Origin: Alphaproteobacteria bacterium
GTDB taxonomy: Bacteria; Pseudomonadota; Alphaproteobacteria; UBA8366
Direction: 5' to 3'
DNA: 64,000 nucleotides
NCBI GenBank assembly: GCA_028281325.1
Contig: JANQKC010000004.1
Location: 1 to 64,000, forward strand
The position numbers were made by a program, and so were the translations under genes. The notes under the pieces are model-generated. The model was not told the DNA's origin. It made no database searches and saw only the letters and a list, made by a program, of their open reading frames with translations. This document shows, piece after piece, positions 9,866-26,308 of this stretch (within the stretch, counting starts at the first letter, position 1; each line of letters opens with the position of its first letter).

Positions 9866-11470
9866 GTGGGCGACACCGTTTCGCGTATCAGCGCAGGGGA
9901 TGTAAAGGCACGGATCAAGGGGGGCGGCGAGTTCGCCATCCTCGACGCCCGCGAGGAGATGACCTTCGGCAAGCGTCATCTGCTGTTGGCGTCCTGCGTG
10001 CCGCTCAGCCGGTTGGAGATCATGGTCGGCGATCTTGTGCCGCGCCGCGATACGCCGGTGGTGTGGTGCGACGACGGCGAAGGCATCGCGGAGACCGCGG
10101 CCGCCCGTACGGCCGCGTTGGGATACGACGACGTGTCGCTCTTGGACGGCGGCATCGCGGCGTGGGAAGCGGCGGGTTACCGCATCTACAGCGGCGTTCA
10201 CGTGCCGAGCAAGGCCTTCGCCGAAGTGGTCGAGCACGAAGCCGCCACGCCCTACATCACCGCGGAAGAGCTGAAGTCGCTGATCGACAGCAAGGCCGAC
10301 ATCGCGATCTACGACAGCCGGTCCTACGAGGAATACAACAACAACAGCATCCCGACCGCGATCAGCGTCCCGGGGGCGGAACTGGTCTATCGGTTCACCG
10401 ATCTGACGCCGTCGTCCGACACGATGGTGATCGTCAATTGCGGCGGGCGTACACGCAGCATCATCGGCGCGCAATCCCTGATCAACGCGGGTTTCCGGAA
10501 CAAGATCGTCTCGTTGAAGGACGGCACGATGGCGTGGCATCTCGCCGGGTTCGACGTGGTGAATGGAGCGACGAAGACTCCGCCGGACGTGTCGGAGAAA
10601 GGGTTCGACGCCGCGCTGAACGGCGCGGCGAAAGTTGCCTCTCTGTGTGACATTCCGAAGATCGACGCGGCGACGCTCGACGCCTGGCGCGGGGAGGCAG
10701 ATAGCAAGACCTTGTATGTCCTGGATGTGCGCACGCCCGAGGAATACGAAGCCGGACACTTGCCCGGCGTCCGGTCCGCGCCGGGGGGCCAATTGGTGCA
10801 GGAGACGGACAGCCATATCGCGGTGTGGGGCGCGCGGGTCGTGCTGGTTGACGACAACGGCGTCCGCGCGACGATGACAGCGTCCTGGCTGAAACAGATG
10901 GGCTGGACGGATGTCGCGACCCTGACGATCGGCAGCGTCGGCGGCTCGTTGGAGACCGGGCCGTATCGTCCCACGGCGCTTGGGTTCGATTCCGGGGCGG
11001 TGTCGACGATCGATGCCGCGGATTTGAAGGCGCGTCTCGACGCGGGTGGCGCCGTGGTTGTCGACGTCGCCGATAGCCGGACCTATCGCGGGGGGCATAT
11101 CCCCGGCGCCCATTTCTCGACCCGTGGCCGGCTTGCGGCCGCGTTGCCGAAACTGCCGCAGGTCGAGGCGTTGGTGTTCACCTCGCCGGACGGGGTGCTG
11201 GCGGGGCTTGCGGCGGCCGATGCGGCGAAAGAAGCGGCTTGTCCAGTCTATCTCTTGTCCGGCGGGACCGATGCCTGGATCGGTGCCGGGTACGCGTTGG
11301 AGGAAGGGCCGACGCATATGGCGGGCGAGGCGGACGATGTGTGGCTGTCGGCGCGCGAACTCGGCAAGAACCGCGAGGAAGCGATGCTCGAGTACCTCGC
11401 CTGGGAGATCGATCTGGTGAACCAGATGGCGACCGACGACGACCATCGGTTCCAAGTCGCCACCGGATGA
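9866..11470 (+). CDS. four-domain rhodanese protein
   Basis: 534-residue cytosolic protein made of four consecutive rhodanese domains (about 8-105, 125-235, 262-350 and 372-470). Rhodaneses carry sulfane sulfur as a cysteine persulfide. Domain 1 has Cys68 in VVWCDDGEG and domain 2 has Cys192 in NCGGRTRS, both at the active-site loop. In domain 3 the equivalent loop reads LVDDNGVRA and in domain 4 FTSPDGVLA, so both lack the cysteine. GTG start at 9866 is supported by AGGGAGGA 7 bp upstream. Its place after a thiol-dioxygenase-like cupin suggests persulfide or thiosulfate handling (inference). Confidence 0.9.
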   Translation: MGDTVSRISAGDVKARIKGGGEFAILDAREEMTFGKRHLLLASCVPLSRLEIMVGDLVPRRDTPVVWCDDGEGIAETAAARTAALGYDDVSLLDGGIAAWEAAGYRIYSGVHVPSKAFAEVVEHEAATPYITAEELKSLIDSKADIAIYDSRSYEEYNNNSIPTAISVPGAELVYRFTDLTPSSDTMVIVNCGGRTRSIIGAQSLINAGFRNKIVSLKDGTMAWHLAGFDVVNGATKTPPDVSEKGFDAALNGAAKVASLCDIPKIDAATLDAWRGEADSKTLYVLDVRTPEEYEAGHLPGVRSAPGGQLVQETDSHIAVWGARVVLVDDNGVRATMTASWLKQMGWTDVATLTIGSVGGSLETGPYRPTALGFDSGAVSTIDAADLKARLDAGGAVVVDVADSRTYRGGHIPGAHFSTRGRLAAALPKLPQVEALVFTSPDGVLAGLAAADAAKEAACPVYLLSGGTDAWIGAGYALEEGPTHMAGEADDVWLSARELGKNREEAMLEYLAWEIDLVNQMATDDDHRFQVATG

Positions 11471-15364: not shown

Positions 15365-15982
15365 ATGATCCTTGTAGGCCGTAACCTGTCGCCTTTCGTG
15401 CGGCGCAGCGCGATCGTCCTGAAGACCTTGGGAATGGATTTTGAACCCAAGGGGTTGTCGACGGCGGACGACACCGACGAAATCATGAAGATCAATCCGG
15501 TGGGCCGGGTGCCGTCGCTGATCCTGGAGGATGGCGAGACCATCGTCGACAGTCAGGCGATCATCGATCACGCGCTGGAGGTGGGTGACCCCGACAACCG
15601 ATTGCTCGCGGCGTCGGGGGCGGAGCGGCGGGCGGTGTTGCGGATTTCCGCTATTGCCCAGGGCGCGATGGAGAAGGCGGTGGCGTCCAGCTATGAGCGG
15701 AACCGCCGTCCCAAGGACAAGGTGTATACGGGCTGGGTCGAGCAGGTCGACGCGCAGAATGCATCGGCATTGGCGTCGCTGGACGCGATGGCCAGGGCCG
15801 GCGGCGAGTGGATACACGGCGGTCACATGACGCTGGCGGATATCAACGCGGCCGTCGCCTATGACTTCGTCGGCATCGCGGAGCCCTATCTCGTCAAGGA
15901 TGACGCATACCCCGCGTTGGCGGCGTTATCCCAGCGCTGCAATGCGTTACCGGCCTTTGCCGAGACGCAGTGGAAGGGTTGA
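15365..15982 (+). CDS. glutathione S-transferase-like protein
   Basis: 205 residues with an N-terminal thioredoxin-fold GST domain (NLSPFVRRSAIVLKTLG, cis-Pro in GRVPSL, and EDGETIVDSQAI binding the gamma-glutamyl part) and an all-helical C-terminal domain. The Ser/Pro at residues 9-10 sits where Ser- or Cys-type GSTs have their glutathione-activating residue. A GGGAG ribosome binding site precedes ATG 15365. It lies 58 bp after the Fe-ADH-like gene and 78 bp before the thioredoxin-fold partner of the UGSC selenoprotein, adding to the redox/thiol theme of this cluster. Confidence 0.85.
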   Translation: MILVGRNLSPFVRRSAIVLKTLGMDFEPKGLSTADDTDEIMKINPVGRVPSLILEDGETIVDSQAIIDHALEVGDPDNRLLAASGAERRAVLRISAIAQGAMEKAVASSYERNRRPKDKVYTGWVEQVDAQNASALASLDAMARAGGEWIHGGHMTLADINAAVAYDFVGIAEPYLVKDDAYPALAALSQRCNALPAFAETQWKG

Positions 15983-16060
15983 GCCGATTGCTGGGACCGA
16001 TCGCCGGTGCTAGCCTGAATCGTTGGCGCACCGACCGCGCACCTTCCCTTGGAGACAAGA

Positions 16061-17500
16061 ATGGCTGACACGGACAATGGCATCATCGCGGTCGTCAAAC
16101 GCGATTGCCCGACTTGCGAACTCGTGGAGCCGGTTCTGAAGCGGCTTGAAGAGGCCGGGACCCTGGTGCGCGTCTATTCGCAGGACGATCCGGCCTTCCC
16201 GGCGAGCATTGCCGATGTCCAGGACGACCGGTCGCTCGAACGGTCCTTTCATCTGAACGTGGAGTTCGTGCCGACGCTGATCCGCCTGGAAGACCGGCGG
16301 GAATCCGGCCGCGTGTTCGGTTGGAACCGGGAGGAGTGGGAGCGGTTCACCGGCATTCAGGGCATCGGCGAAGGATTGCCCGCGAACCAGCCGGGCTGTG
16401 GGTCGAAATCGGTCGAGCCCGGGATTCCCGAGCAGCTACAGGCGCGCTACGGCGAGGTGCCGTTCAAGTCGCGGAAGGTCGAGTATTCCGACTGGGACGA
16501 TGTGATGGAGCAGGCGTTCGACCGGGGCTGGACCGATGGTCTGCCGGTCGTGCCGCCGACCGATGCCCGCATTCTGCGCATGCTGACGGGCACCGACCGG
16601 GCGCCGGACGAGGTCGTCGGTATCATGCCGCCGGACCTGAAGGAATGCACGGTCGAGAAGATTGCGGTGAACGCGGTCATGGCCGGGGCGCGGCCGGAGT
16701 ACATGCCGGTGATCCTGGCGGTCGTCGAAGCCGCGCTGAAACCGAAATTTACGCTGCACGGCGTGTTGTGCACGCTCAACTTTGCGGGGCCGGTCATCAT
16801 GGTCAACGGGCCGGTCACCAAGTCGATCGGGATGAACTGGGGCGGCAACTGCCTGGGCCAGGGCAACCGCGCGAACGCCACCATCGGGCGGACCCTGCAA
16901 TTGCTGGTGCGGAATGTCGGCGGCGGGCGGCCCGGCGAAATCGACCGCGCGGTCTTCGGCAACCCGGGGAAATACACCTATTGTTTCGCCGAGGACGAGA
17001 CCGACCCGGATTGGGAGCCGCTGCACGTATCGCGCGGCTGCACCCCGGGGTCCAACGCGGTGACGCTGCATCACGGCCATGGCGTGACCGGCTTCTCGGA
17101 CTCTGCGGCCCGCGGGGCGGACGAACTCGCGCGGTCGCTGTCGCTGATGCTCGTCAACGAGATGCATCCGAAGAAGACGCAATGCGCCAACGTCATCGTC
17201 GCGATCTCGCCGGAGCACTACCGTATCTACAAGGATGACGGTTGGGGCCGGAAGGAGATCGAGGAAGCGCTGCACCATTACACGACCCGGCCCGGCAAGG
17301 ACCTGATCAAGGGCGCGCAAGGCATCAACGAAGGGATCGACCCGGCGCTGGCCGAGGAGATGGTGCCCAAATTCTGGCGCGATCACGGTATACTGTTGGT
17401 GCGCGCGGGCGGCCCCGGCGGCCTGCAGACCGCGATCATCGGCGGTTGGAGCGGCGGCCGGAACCATGACGAGATTCAGCCGGTCACGCACCAGTTCTAG
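16061..17500 (+). CDS. thioredoxin-fold protein with large uncharacterised C-terminal domain, partner of UGSC selenoprotein
   Basis: 479 residues. Residues 7-95 form a thioredoxin-like domain with CPTC at 16-19 and a cis-proline in FVPTLI. Residues about 120-479 form a domain I do not recognise, rich in Gly and conserved-looking blocks (SDWDDVMEQAFDRGWTDG, GIMPPDLKE, NWGGNCLGQGNRANATIGR, HHGHGVTGFSD), which look enzymatic or ligand-binding. It also holds a PGCGSKS segment just after the thioredoxin domain. There is no signal peptide or membrane helix, so it is cytosolic. The start is set by TTGGAGAC before ATG 16061. The UGSC selenoprotein begins 42 bp downstream, so a selenol-disulfide relay between the two is a natural hypothesis. 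Confidence 0.8.
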   Translation: MADTDNGIIAVVKRDCPTCELVEPVLKRLEEAGTLVRVYSQDDPAFPASIADVQDDRSLERSFHLNVEFVPTLIRLEDRRESGRVFGWNREEWERFTGIQGIGEGLPANQPGCGSKSVEPGIPEQLQARYGEVPFKSRKVEYSDWDDVMEQAFDRGWTDGLPVVPPTDARILRMLTGTDRAPDEVVGIMPPDLKECTVEKIAVNAVMAGARPEYMPVILAVVEAALKPKFTLHGVLCTLNFAGPVIMVNGPVTKSIGMNWGGNCLGQGNRANATIGRTLQLLVRNVGGGRPGEIDRAVFGNPGKYTYCFAEDETDPDWEPLHVSRGCTPGSNAVTLHHGHGVTGFSDSAARGADELARSLSLMLVNEMHPKKTQCANVIVAISPEHYRIYKDDGWGRKEIEEALHHYTTRPGKDLIKGAQGINEGIDPALAEEMVPKFWRDHGILLVRAGGPGGLQTAIIGGWSGGRNHDEIQPVTHQF

Positions 17501-17542
17501 AAACGGCATCCTGCCCGTAACCGAAAAGGAGGACTGTCCGAC

Positions 17543-18061
17543 ATGAGATTCGTTCGAGACCCGACCAGCGAAGCGTCCGCGACCAAACGGCCGCCGCGGG
17601 CCTTACCCGCCGACATTACGGGCAAGACGATCGCGCTGCTTGATATCTCCAAGGAACGCAGCGACGAATTCCTCGATCATCTCGAAGTCAAATTCTCGGA
17701 AGCCGGTTTCCCGGTGAAGCGCTACCGCAAGCCGAGCAATTCCAAGAATGCGACGCCCGAGCTGATCCAGGCGATTGTCCAGGACGCGGATATCGTCGTC
17801 GAAAGCCTCGCCGATTGAGGCTCGTGCACGTCGTGCAGTCTGCATGACATGAATGCACTGGATAACTTGGGCGTTCCCGGATTGATGGTCGCGACGACCG
17901 AATTCAAGGTCGCGGCGTCGTCGCAGGCGAAATCGCTGGGTTTCGAACCGCATATCGTTTGGGTCGAGCATCCGATTCAGAACCGCACGGCGGACGAATT
18001 GCGGGATATCGCCTATAATGCGTTCACGCCGATCATGGAGACGCTGCAGAACGGCGCTTGA
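17543..18061 (+). CDS. UGSC-motif selenoprotein (in-frame TGA = Sec92)
   Basis: Read through TGA at 17816-17818 the frame gives 172 residues: 91 before it, then Sec-Gly-Ser-Cys-Thr-Ser-Cys and 74 more, ending at TGA 18059-18061. The segment after the TGA is in the same frame, has the same codon bias and folds on naturally (beta-strand VVESLAD, redox loop, helix MNALDNLG, strand GLMVATTEF). A hairpin at 17830-17848 matches a bacterial SECIS. A UGSC-containing (seleno)protein family is known to me from marine metagenomes, with no established function. AAAAGGAGG lies before ATG 17543. Ordinary annotation would give a 91-residue fragment plus a second false start at 17849. Confidence 0.93.
17830..17848 (+). 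promoter_or_regulatory. bacterial SECIS element of the UGSC gene
   Basis: Hairpin with arms GTCGTGCA and TGCATGAC (one G-T pair) and loop GTC, starting 11 nt after the TGA. The E. coli fdhF SECIS also starts 11 nt after its UGA and has the apical sequence TGCAGGTCTGCA; here the apex is TGCAGTCTGCA, one G shorter. The G and T that SelB reads in the loop are kept. It lies inside the coding sequence, so its bases also encode Ser-Cys-Ser-Leu-His-Asp. Confidence 0.88.
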
Positions 18062-18205
18062 TTCGCAAGGCTGGCTTGCGGACCAAATTAGCGGGCTGTC
18101 TCTCGCTGATTCTAGGGTAGTATCGCCGCAGTTTTCGTGTGGGATGTGTTGCCGGTCGACTCCGCTCGGCCGTATCGGTTTGAATTGATCGGGGAAGGCC
18201 GCGAC

Positions 18206-22319: not shown

Positions 22320-22484
22320 GTGTGTGTCCTTTTTGGAATGGGGTTGGTTAGCAACGGCTGCTCTATTTTAGCAGAAGCGGACGGCCGGGTTGAAATGACA
22401 TCCGCGCGCTTAGCCGGTTTGCCGGGGTTTCGGTCCGGCCCCTATACTCGATGGGATTCCCGCTCAACCCCGCGAGTTCCCGCC

Positions 22485-24221
22485 ATGGCCGACGATATCG
22501 ACCCGATCCGCCTCGAACTCATCAAGAATTCGTTGGTGATGATTTCCGACAACCTGATGGTGTCGGTGTTGCGGACGTCGCGGTCAACGCTGGTCAAGGC
22601 GAATATGGATTTTTCCGCGTCGATCTGCGATGCGGCGGGCAACATGGTCGGGCAAGGGCTGGCGCTGCCGGGCCATCTGGGCGCAACCATGCCGGCGCTC
22701 CGGGGATGCCTCGATTACTTCCAAGAGGATATCGAGCCGGGCGACATCTTCGCCAATAACGATCCCTATGCCGGCGGCAGCCATCTCAACGACATCTTCA
22801 TGTTCAAGCCGGTCTTCCGTGACGGCGAGTGCATCTGCTTCCTCGGGTTGATCCTGCATCACACCGACCTGGGCGGGCGCGTTGCCGGAGGGCAGGCGGC
22901 GGACAGCGACGAGATATTCCAGGAAGGGCTGCGCATCCCACCCAGCAAGATCTACCAGGCGGGCAAACCGAACGACACGCTGATGCGCATCATCGAGCAC
23001 AACACCCGCGTGCCGGACACGGTATTGGGCGACGTGCGGGCGCAGATCGCGGCCTTGAACGCCGGCGCAATCGAGATCGAGAAGCTTGTCGATCTCTACG
23101 GCGTCGCCGAACTGAAGAAATACATGAACGAGTTGGTCGACTATACCGAGCGGCTCGTGCGCAGCTACATCCGCGATCTGCCCGACGGCGAAGCCGAGTT
23201 TACGGATTACAATGATGACGATGGCGTCGGCGGCGGTCCGGTCACGCTGCACGTCAAGTTGACGGTGAAAGGCGATGAAATCGTTGCGGATTTCACTGGC
23301 ACGTCACCGCAGATGGGCGGCGCGCTGCATACCAATTACTGGTTCACCGCCTCGTTGACCTATGCCGCGCTGCGCGCGGTCATGCCGCCGGACACGCCGA
23401 ACAATGCTGGCTTCTACCGGCCCATCACCGTGATCGCGCCGGAAGGCAGTTGGGTCAATCCGCGCTTTCCGGCGGCGTTGGGCGCGCGCGGGCAGGGCGG
23501 CTACCGTATCCGCACCTTGGTGTCGGGCGCGATCGCCAAACTGATGCCGGGGCGCATGCCGGCTTGCCCGGGCGGCAACGAGTTCGGCCTGTCGGTCACC
23601 GGCCTGACGCCGGAACGGCGGCGCTTCCTGCATGTGGAATTCCACAATGTGACGGGCCGCGGCGGCGGCCCCGATGCGGACGGACAGGACGGCGGCCCCT
23701 ATTGGTTGGGCAATCTGTCCAACACGCCGGTCGAGGTCATCGAGGCGGAGAACCCGCTGCTGATCGAGGAATACGGGTTCCTGCCCGATACCGGAGGGCC
23801 CGGAAAGTACCGCGGCGGGCTGGGCGTCGTGCGGCAATACCGGTTGCTGAACGAGACGGCGATTGTGCAGCAGCGCGCGGACCGGCATGTCTACCCGTGC
23901 TGGGGCTTGTTCGGCGGTAAACCGGGGGCGCTCTCCAAATCCTATTTCGTGAAGGACGGCGTGCGCGAGGAGTCGCCGGCGAAATTCGTCCGGACGATGG
24001 TGAAGGACGAGATCTTCCGGTCGGAAATGGCCGGTTCGGGCGGATACGGCGAGCCGTTCGAACGCGATCCCGATGCCGTCGCGGAGGACGTGCGCCAGGA
24101 CAAGATGTCGTTGGCGCATGCGGAAGCGGAATACGGCGTCGTCCTCGACCCGGGCACGTTCGCCGTCGACCGGGACCGCACGGCGGAACGGCGCGCGGCC
24201 GGCGGGACCGCCGCGCCATGA
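22485..24221 (+). CDS. hyuB: hydantoinase B/oxoprolinase beta subunit
   Basis: 578-residue HyuB-family subunit, which with HyuA forms ATP-dependent hydantoinase, 5-oxoprolinase or acetone-carboxylase-type enzymes. It starts with IDPIRLELIKNSLVMISDNL and holds the family block GDIFANNDPYAGGSHLND (about 86-103) and LHHTDLGGRVAG. ATG 22485 is chosen because the long upstream frame is antisense to the SDR gene. It overlaps hyuA by ATGA (24218-24221), showing translational coupling. The substrate among N-methylhydantoin, oxoproline or similar cyclic amides is undetermined. Confidence 0.9.
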   Translation: MADDIDPIRLELIKNSLVMISDNLMVSVLRTSRSTLVKANMDFSASICDAAGNMVGQGLALPGHLGATMPALRGCLDYFQEDIEPGDIFANNDPYAGGSHLNDIFMFKPVFRDGECICFLGLILHHTDLGGRVAGGQAADSDEIFQEGLRIPPSKIYQAGKPNDTLMRIIEHNTRVPDTVLGDVRAQIAALNAGAIEIEKLVDLYGVAELKKYMNELVDYTERLVRSYIRDLPDGEAEFTDYNDDDGVGGGPVTLHVKLTVKGDEIVADFTGTSPQMGGALHTNYWFTASLTYAALRAVMPPDTPNNAGFYRPITVIAPEGSWVNPRFPAALGARGQGGYRIRTLVSGAIAKLMPGRMPACPGGNEFGLSVTGLTPERRRFLHVEFHNVTGRGGGPDADGQDGGPYWLGNLSNTPVEVIEAENPLLIEEYGFLPDTGGPGKYRGGLGVVRQYRLLNETAIVQQRADRHVYPCWGLFGGKPGALSKSYFVKDGVREESPAKFVRTMVKDEIFRSEMAGSGGYGEPFERDPDAVAEDVRQDKMSLAHAEAEYGVVLDPGTFAVDRDRTAERRAAGGTAAP

Positions 24222-26308
24222 CCCGATACCGTCTCGGCATCGATATCGGCGGCACGTTCACGGATATCGTGCTGCTCGGCGAGGACGGGGTCGTCCACAC
24301 CAAGAAGATCCTCTCGACGCCGGACGACTACAGCCTGGCCATCGAGGCGGGGACGCGGGCGCTGCTCGCGGAAACGGGTATTGCGGCGGACGCAATCGCC
24401 GAGGTGTCACACGGCACGACGGTAGCGACCAACGCCATCATCGAACGCAAGGGCGTGCGCGTGGCCCTGGTCACCACGCAGGGATTCCGCGACATCTTGG
24501 AGATTGCCCGGTATCGCGCGCCGCAGCTCTACGACGTGTATTTCCGCAAGCCCGATCCGTTGGTCGAGCGGCGGCTGCGGTTTCAGGTGCCGGAGCGGAT
24601 GGCCGCGACCGGCCAAGTGGTGACGCCGTTGGATGCGGAGGCGGTGCATGCCGTGGCGGACAGATGCGTCGCCGAGGGTGTCGACGCGGTCGCCATCTGT
24701 TTCATCAACGCCTATGCGAACGGCGCGCACGAGGAAGAGGCGGCGGCGCTGTTCCGGGCACGCCATCCCGATTTGCCGGTCACCGTGTCGAGCGAATTGG
24801 TGCCGCAGATCCAGGAATACGAGCGGACCAGCACGACCGTCGTGAACGCCTATATCCGGCCCGTGATCGAACGCTACGCGCGGAGATTGGAGGAACGGCT
24901 TAATTCGATCGGCATTTCGGTGCCGCTGAACATCATGCAGTCGAACGGGGGCGTCCTGCCCGGGGCGCTGGCGGCGCGCAAGCCGATCTTCATCATCGAA
25001 TCCGGTCCGGCGGCCGGGGTGGTGGGCGCGCAACGGCTCGGCGACCGTCTTGGCCTCGGTGATACGATCGTCTTCGACATGGGCGGCACCACCGCGAAGG
25101 CGTCGATCATCGTCGGCGGCGAATATGGAACGGCCCCGGAAACCGAGGTCGGCGGCGGCGCGGCGCTCGGCCATCGCATGATCCGGGGCGGCGGCTACGT
25201 GGTCCAGGCGCCGACCATCGACATCGCCGAAGTGGGCGCGGGCGGCGGCAGCATCGCCTGGGTCGACGCGGGGGGCGGTATTCAGGTCGGCCCGCACAGC
25301 GCGGGCGCGGCGCCGGGTCCGGTCTGTTACGGTCAGGGGGGGACGGAGCCGACGGTCACCGACGCCAATCTGCTGTTGGGGTACTTGAACCCGGATGTCT
25401 TGGTCGGCGGCGACCTGGCGCTCGACCGCGACGCGGCGGAGCGCGCGGTCGCCGGGATCGGCGACACGCTGGGGCAATCCACGATCGATACCGCCTACGG
25501 CATCCACCTCATCGCGAACGCGCGGATGATGCGGGCGTTGAGCGCGGTGTCCTCCGAGCGCGGCCTCGATCCCGCCGGGTTCGGCGCCGTCGCCTTCGGC
25601 GGGAACGGCGGCGTGCATGTCTGCGGCTTGGCGGAGTCGCTCGGCTTGCCCGAGGTCGTTGTGCCGCCGGCGGCCGGGTTGTTCAGCGCGCTTGGTCTGA
25701 TCTTCGCGGACGTGGAACACCAGTGCATCCGCGCCTACTACCAGCCGATCGATTCGGTGGACCTGGACGCGCTGAACGGGAGCTTCGAGGCCCTGCGCAC
25801 CGAGGCGATCGAGCTTCTGACCGCGGACGGCTATCCGGAGGAACGCCGGACGCTGACCTGTTCCGCCGAGGTGAAGTATATCGGGCAAAATGCGGCGCTG
25901 GTGGTGCCGATCGATCGCTTGCCGATTACGGATAGCGATCTGGAATCACTGTCTGAGTCTTTCGCCGTCGCGCATGACAAGACCTTCGGATACCGGTCCG
26001 ACGAGGAACGCCTGCAATTCGTGTCGCTCAAGGTGGTCGGACGCGGGGTGCCGGATGCGCCGCGGCTGCCGGAAGCGGTGCATGTTGGCAGCGATCACGC
26101 GGCGTCGATGGCGCACCGGCGGGCCTATTTCGGGCCGGAGCATGGATGGATGGAAACGCCGGTGCTCCGCCGCATCGATTTGGACGAGACGCCGCGGGTC
26201 GGCCCGTTGATCGTCGAGGAATACGACACGACCACCGTCGTGCGCCCCGGATGGGCCGCGTCCCGAGATAGCTGGAACAATATCCGTCTGGTCAGCGCCG
26301 GCGGTTGA
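24218..26308 (+). CDS. hyuA: hydantoinase A/oxoprolinase alpha subunit
   Basis: 696-residue HyuA-family subunit with the ASKHA-type ATP-binding start LGIDIGGTFTDIVLL, VSHGTTVATNAIIERKG (about 66-82), the central ESGPAAGVVGA (about 262-272) and DMGGTTAKASI (about 287-297). Full length for the family. Translation is coupled to hyuB by a 4-bp overlap. HyuA activates the amide with ATP and HyuB completes ring opening in the cytosol. It converges with the NIPSNAP-like gene 11 bp later. Confidence 0.92.
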   Translation: MTRYRLGIDIGGTFTDIVLLGEDGVVHTKKILSTPDDYSLAIEAGTRALLAETGIAADAIAEVSHGTTVATNAIIERKGVRVALVTTQGFRDILEIARYRAPQLYDVYFRKPDPLVERRLRFQVPERMAATGQVVTPLDAEAVHAVADRCVAEGVDAVAICFINAYANGAHEEEAAALFRARHPDLPVTVSSELVPQIQEYERTSTTVVNAYIRPVIERYARRLEERLNSIGISVPLNIMQSNGGVLPGALAARKPIFIIESGPAAGVVGAQRLGDRLGLGDTIVFDMGGTTAKASIIVGGEYGTAPETEVGGGAALGHRMIRGGGYVVQAPTIDIAEVGAGGGSIAWVDAGGGIQVGPHSAGAAPGPVCYGQGGTEPTVTDANLLLGYLNPDVLVGGDLALDRDAAERAVAGIGDTLGQSTIDTAYGIHLIANARMMRALSAVSSERGLDPAGFGAVAFGGNGGVHVCGLAESLGLPEVVVPPAAGLFSALGLIFADVEHQCIRAYYQPIDSVDLDALNGSFEALRTEAIELLTADGYPEERRTLTCSAEVKYIGQNAALVVPIDRLPITDSDLESLSESFAVAHDKTFGYRSDEERLQFVSLKVVGRGVPDAPRLPEAVHVGSDHAASMAHRRAYFGPEHGWMETPVLRRIDLDETPRVGPLIVEEYDTTTVVRPGWAASRDSWNNIRLVSAGG

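Follow-up and report, generated by a model that had tools for sequence, protein, structure and literature searches.

Sequence comparison suggests that a UGSC-family selenoprotein gene and the gene ahead of it, both located in a window of 64,000 nucleotides (the whole stretch of DNA analysed here), probably encode a two-subunit, thioredoxin-driven selenocysteine reductase that would be like the proline and glycine reductases without being a member of that group. What appears to be new, beyond the known UGSC family, is the system itself, i.e. the constant partner gene and its electron source. The features concerned are as follows.

16049..17500, plus strand: partner gene of 483 aa with a TTG start (in-frame ATG at 16061); an N-terminal thioredoxin-fold domain with C20-P-T-C23 is followed by a conserved domain
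16496..17449, plus strand: the conserved partner domain (residues 150-467, from sequence alignment), used as the query of the partner searches
17526..17533, plus strand: Shine-Dalgarno-like AAGGAGGA ahead of the UGSC start (from sequence)
17543..18061, plus strand: UGSC-family selenoprotein gene of 172 aa, predicted Sec at residue 92 (from the reading frame, the PF24696 match and relatives)
17816..17818, plus strand: in-frame TGA, the predicted selenocysteine codon and first residue of U-G-S-C (from sequence)
17830..17848, plus strand: predicted apical hairpin of a bacterial SECIS, 8 bp with a GTC loop, just 3' of the TGA (from folding and a synonymous-codon control)

The UGSC gene and its in-frame TGA

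The UGSC frame opens at ATG 17543, passes through TGA 17816-17818 and ends at TGA 18059-18061 without any further stop, and 17543-18061 is a single coding frame across the TGA. The initial annotation had described this frame as coding on both sides of the TGA, which is confirmed by the closest relative found (L011, JAJFJD010000040.1; 95% identity to the window over the best segment). Loss of the frame in relatives was looked for, and L011 keeps both frame and TGA. The changes between the two are mostly synonymous on each side (13 synonymous and 4 non-synonymous upstream of the TGA; 18 and 3 downstream), and by this comparison purifying selection persists downstream of the TGA.

Residues 4-169 of the read-through protein match PF24696 (E 1.7e-36; 126.4 bits, Pfam cut-off 25), and its length and the place of the Sec agree with this family too. 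It is filed there and not under NF041046 because its score is half a bit below the equivalog cut-off of the latter (124.5 versus 125 bits, with C substituted for U). The match and the predicted Sec support the earlier assignment to the UGSC selenoproteins with a redox-type U-x-x-C site. In the window this site reads U92-G-S-C95, with C98 as a third thiol. All 80 UGSC genes of our table have U or C at the first position and C at +3, and 54 have C at +6; the second Cys pair (C95/C98) noted earlier is hence present in the window but is no invariant of the family, as C98 is absent from 26 of 26 genes of one architecture. Two rows, residues 218-278 of L075 (a second, motif-like fragment) and the N-terminal piece of L095, were excluded from the counts, and a further class copy (G205:C26, in L167), with two partner domains behind UGSC, lies outside the 80-gene table.

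UGSC was found in 28 of the 289 genomes sampled from the class, taken to be Alphaproteobacteria, in at least 75 copies, a lower bound because no more than 11 candidates were scored per genome. One TGA is present in 74 of these 75 copies, while the single TGA-free copy is a Cys form (L096); the window's genome has five UGSC genes. Among 39 homologues in the protein database, the 22 full-length ones were all aligned and have Cys at the Sec column (22/22), the remaining 17 (95-133 aa) being left out of the alignment. Homologues with U and with C at residue 92, for which a search had been advised, therefore both exist, the former as TGA in class copies and the latter as Cys in the database.

The selenium machinery, also named as a check, is entirely present in the window's genome: selA (TIGR00474, 601 bits), selB (TIGR00475, 453 bits), tRNA-Sec (selC, anticodon TCA) and a selD carrying one in-frame TGA. 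The genome has two selD genes (C17:10982-11911 and C33:123515-124432), one with the in-frame TGA and the other within an 819-residue frame. selA, selB and selC occupy one stretch of contig C24, with a second UGSC gene and its own partner 2 kb away. In this locus (L010; G000:C24:184000-197000) the UGSC gene with in-frame TGA lies at about 1190-1736 on the minus strand, beside selB, selA and tRNA-Sec, and its partner, at 1790-2989, is without a Trx domain. Across the class sample, full-length SelA (E < 1e-100) occurs in 27 of the 28 UGSC genomes versus 14 of the 261 others; the sole UGSC genome without it (G011) is 77% complete.

For the SECIS hairpin, the 48 nt from the TGA were folded and compared with versions in which synonymous codons were permuted. 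The natural sequences are more stable than these controls (mean z -1.69, n = 79; 57 below -1 and 72 below 0), whereas control windows upstream and downstream give means of -0.30 and -0.26; the window's own hairpin has z = -1.21. The inner pair is C-G or G-C in 62 of 62 sequences. Third-position covariation is non-significant for two of three pairs, and the third pair (62/62) reflects mainly a Cys-to-Trp plus a Leu-to-Phe change, which may be one event. An Rfam scan of 17400-18200, hairpin included, gave no match.

It is very improbable that the TGA is a genuine terminator, an error of sequencing or a sign of gene decay, with a 91-residue protein as the only product. A standard gene caller does end the gene there, and three short database proteins that were inspected (P0023, P0026 and P0029) terminate just ahead of the TGA position; but the retention of the same TGA in nearly all copies across 28 genomes, the purifying selection beyond it, the downstream hairpin signal, the co-occurrence with SelA and the Cys of the aligned full-length homologues all speak for selenocysteine.

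The partner gene, its pairing and the thioredoxin link

The partner of the window matched none of the Pfam and NCBIfam models at E 0.001. In its conserved domain, D163, R281 and E315 are invariant in 94 of 94 aligned copies. For 77 of the 80 UGSC genes, a partner is either fused or encoded on the same strand no more than 400 nt away. The three UGSC genes lacking an adjacent partner are in G065, G080 and G195; in each of these genomes a partner without neighbouring UGSC exists elsewhere, and the one of G065 is placed in the clade that corresponds to its UGSC type. The partner domain occurs in every UGSC genome (28/28), and one other genome gave a weak hit (E 1e-4). Moreover, UGSC and partner distances are strongly correlated over the 77 pairs (r 0.94; shuffles up to 0.12 over all pairs and up to 0.38 within genomes), and by this measure the paralogous pairs co-evolve pair by pair. 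Diverged pairs number five in the window's genome and reach eight in one other; such multiplicity suggests a division of substrates among the pairs.

No recognised fold was found for the main domain of the partner, and its profile matched neither the PrdB-like nor the UGSC profile. Class I fumarase, the top Foldseek row (7xky_A; E 7e-4, TM 0.2-0.3), was considered as the partner fold and set aside, the partner profile scoring 11.7 and 12.8 against fumarase subunits of the same genome while the best random proteins reached 20.7-23.5.

Two architectures can be distinguished. In the order partner-UGSC, the type of the window (51 genes), the third thiol is kept in all genes, while in the order UGSC-partner (26 genes) it is missing at that place in all. 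A Trx-like CxxC domain is found in the partner of 31 of the 51 genes with the former order and of none of the 26 with the latter. Conversely, a thioredoxin reductase-like gene (TIGR01292, CAxC) occurs within 5 kb of 13 of the 26 UGSC-partner genes (11 on the same strand) and of none of the 51 partner-UGSC genes (Fisher 6e-8, kinship ignored). Neither the domain nor such a gene within 5 kb is seen for 20 of the 51 and 13 of the 26, respectively. A second partner domain is located near 17 of the 26 UGSC-partner genes, first and second copies forming separate clades. Tandem, diverged partner-domain copies stand behind fused UGSC-partner genes in L105, L107, L108, L109 and others, as two stable clades reminiscent of alpha and beta subunits.

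These distributions also bear on a quite improbable reading, in which the U-x-x-C(-x-x-C) motif serves as a metal site or as a carrier of selenium or sulfur, with a role in metal or selenium handling and no reductase activity. A surface motif rich in U and C is a conceivable ligand for soft metals, and UGSC is nearly confined to SelA-bearing genomes; against this stand the loss of the third thiol in 26 of 80 genes, the replacement of Sec by Cys in one sampled copy and the recurring thioredoxin or thioredoxin-reductase links.

Among 129 same-strand neighbours of the pairs, 99 were scanned (short ones were left out), and only thioredoxin reductase is clearly recurrent (7/99). Common neighbours were also considered as a clue to the substrate, but window-type pairs are flanked by mixed, unrelated genes that indicate no pathway. 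Just upstream of the window's partner is a glutathione S-transferase gene (15365-15982), retained in L011. A hydantoinase/caprolactamase-like B and A pair, under the equivalog cut-offs, lies at 22458-26308, and hydantoinase A-like genes recur near some other UGSC pairs; a single protein with four rhodanese domains is encoded at 9866-11470. Some copies of the second architecture adjoin ABC transport, amidohydrolase, formamidase-like and monooxygenase genes.

A stress-defence role, with the pair acting as a peroxidase or protein-disulfide reductase, is unlikely though less so than metal handling. The Sec would then reduce hydroperoxides or oxidised protein thiols, with the partner as a dedicated thioredoxin-like reductant or scaffold. 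Such a role is compatible with the thioredoxin link and the U-x-x-C site, with the occurrence of window-type pairs as two-gene units amid unrelated neighbours, and with aerobic life, which is plausible because the window's genome encodes two COX1 proteins. Substrate-specific enzymes, however, are a better fit to five and up to eight diverged, co-evolving pairs and to a partner domain of 300 residues in which D/R/E are invariant, and the transport and enzyme genes named above beside some second-architecture copies likewise count against a defence role.

The initial annotation had spoken of an undescribed selenium-dependent system. This does not hold for the UGSC gene itself, since it is catalogued (PF24696, NF041046) and the family was reported in 2008, as the available part of PMC2398784 states; an undescribed system is plausible only with the constant partner gene and the thioredoxin or thioredoxin-reductase link, which were absent from that annotation. 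The same part of PMC2398784 places UGSC among the more abundant selenoprotein families of ocean and freshwater metagenomes and mentions its fusion to an 'Unknown_1' domain, which we infer is probably the partner domain. The parts of the UGSC literature at hand (PMC2398784, PMC13188914, PMC9312934 and PMC5029168) name no function, electron donor, partner operon or PrdB kinship, although other papers may; the family entries PF24696 and NF041046 name no partner operon, electron donor or function.

UGSC fold and similarity to PrdB-like selenoproteins

The window's UGSC was modelled (pLDDT 91) as an alpha/beta domain in which five strands alternate with helices and the Sec comes directly after strand 84-90; the model matches flavodoxin-like, receiver-like and B12-type domains. 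This predicted arrangement may differ from the Trx-like fold suggested in the available part of PMC2398784.

UGSC was aligned by hhalign with 27 PrdB-like sequences, chosen by a motif rule that may have admitted a few wrong frames (e.g. L124, L128), giving a score of 37 (P 1.2e-4) over 113 columns with U on U. A smaller set of 12 sequences, under other program options, gave a weaker score of 25.7 against decoys of up to 7.8 (26 decoys, after three clusters that proved to be UGSC halves were set aside). Single PrdB-like sequences scored 39.1, 36.2, 27.0 and 12.4 against UGSC, where the highest score among 80 random single proteins was 24.6. At the profile level the similarity of UGSC and PrdB is a distant one. 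PF07355 was not listed up to E 10 in Pfam scans of the window's UGSC, and a search for a solved-structure relative of the PrdB-like proteins gave none under E 0.05.

PrdB-like selenoproteins were found in 31 of the 289 genomes of the class, with five loci in the window's genome; one such protein matched TIGR04483 in NCBIfam (E 4.5e-31), under its cut-off. Two tandem PrdB-like genes, each with an in-frame TGA, are seen in L165 (G000:C14:366000-376000). In another locus of the same genome (G000:C26; L159:5583-8879), which is without UGSC, about 30-80 nt separate the end of a PrdB-like gene, which has an in-frame TGA, from a downstream Trx-type partner whose domain falls inside the UGSC-linked Trx clade. 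This single case possibly represents a swap of the selenoprotein subunit.

Proposed reaction and comparison with known systems

In the two-subunit reductase that we favour, electrons would pass from NADPH through thioredoxin reductase to free thioredoxin or to the built-in CPTC domain, either of which would reduce a U92-C95 selenenylsulfide of UGSC. The selenolate would then attack a substrate held by the partner, with D163, R281 and E315 as candidate substrate-site residues, and cleave or reduce it. In the D-proline and glycine/betaine/sarcosine reductases, selenocysteine is thought to attack and cleave or reduce the substrate likewise.

A broader proposal, which we put forward only tentatively, is that aerobic-type bacteria possess, in UGSC and its partner, a large class of selenoenzymes driven by thioredoxin. 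This class would have many members and would correspond to the proline and glycine reductases of anaerobes; the pyruvoyl subunit would be replaced by a substrate subunit with a new fold, and the compound cleaved would differ from one paralogous pair to another. With the partner gene and a putative electron source, the orphan motif becomes an enzyme that can be put to the test. If the proposal is true, these bacteria would use selenium for a group of reductive reactions powered by thioredoxin; chemistry of this type is best known from strict anaerobes.

Compared with thioredoxin systems, the window's partner has a thioredoxin fold with CPTC at residues 4-103, and thioredoxin reductase-like genes stand near half of the pairs of the second architecture. 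The thioredoxin part of the partner is distinct, however, in being joined to a further domain, 300 residues long and unlike any recognised family, and in its apparent dedication to one selenoprotein.

The likeness to PrdB and selenoprotein B (PF07355, TIGR04483, TIGR01918) lies in a Sec followed by x-x-C between a strand and a helix, the motif of GrdB being U-x-x-C-x-x-C (available part of PMC13188914). Thioredoxin or a dithiol as reductant would be a further shared trait, and PrdB-like proteins share the window's genome, one of them paired with a UGSC-type partner. UGSC nevertheless falls short of PF07355, and its partner, often with a built-in thioredoxin domain, matches no known subunit, including any pyruvoyl-type (PrdA/GrdE-type) proprotein in the Pfam scan at E 0.001; the two COX1 proteins of the host genome are another difference. 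Since PF07355 is unmatched and the putative substrate subunit is of another kind, the UGSC system is best placed outside the proline and glycine reductases, as a probable analogue of them.
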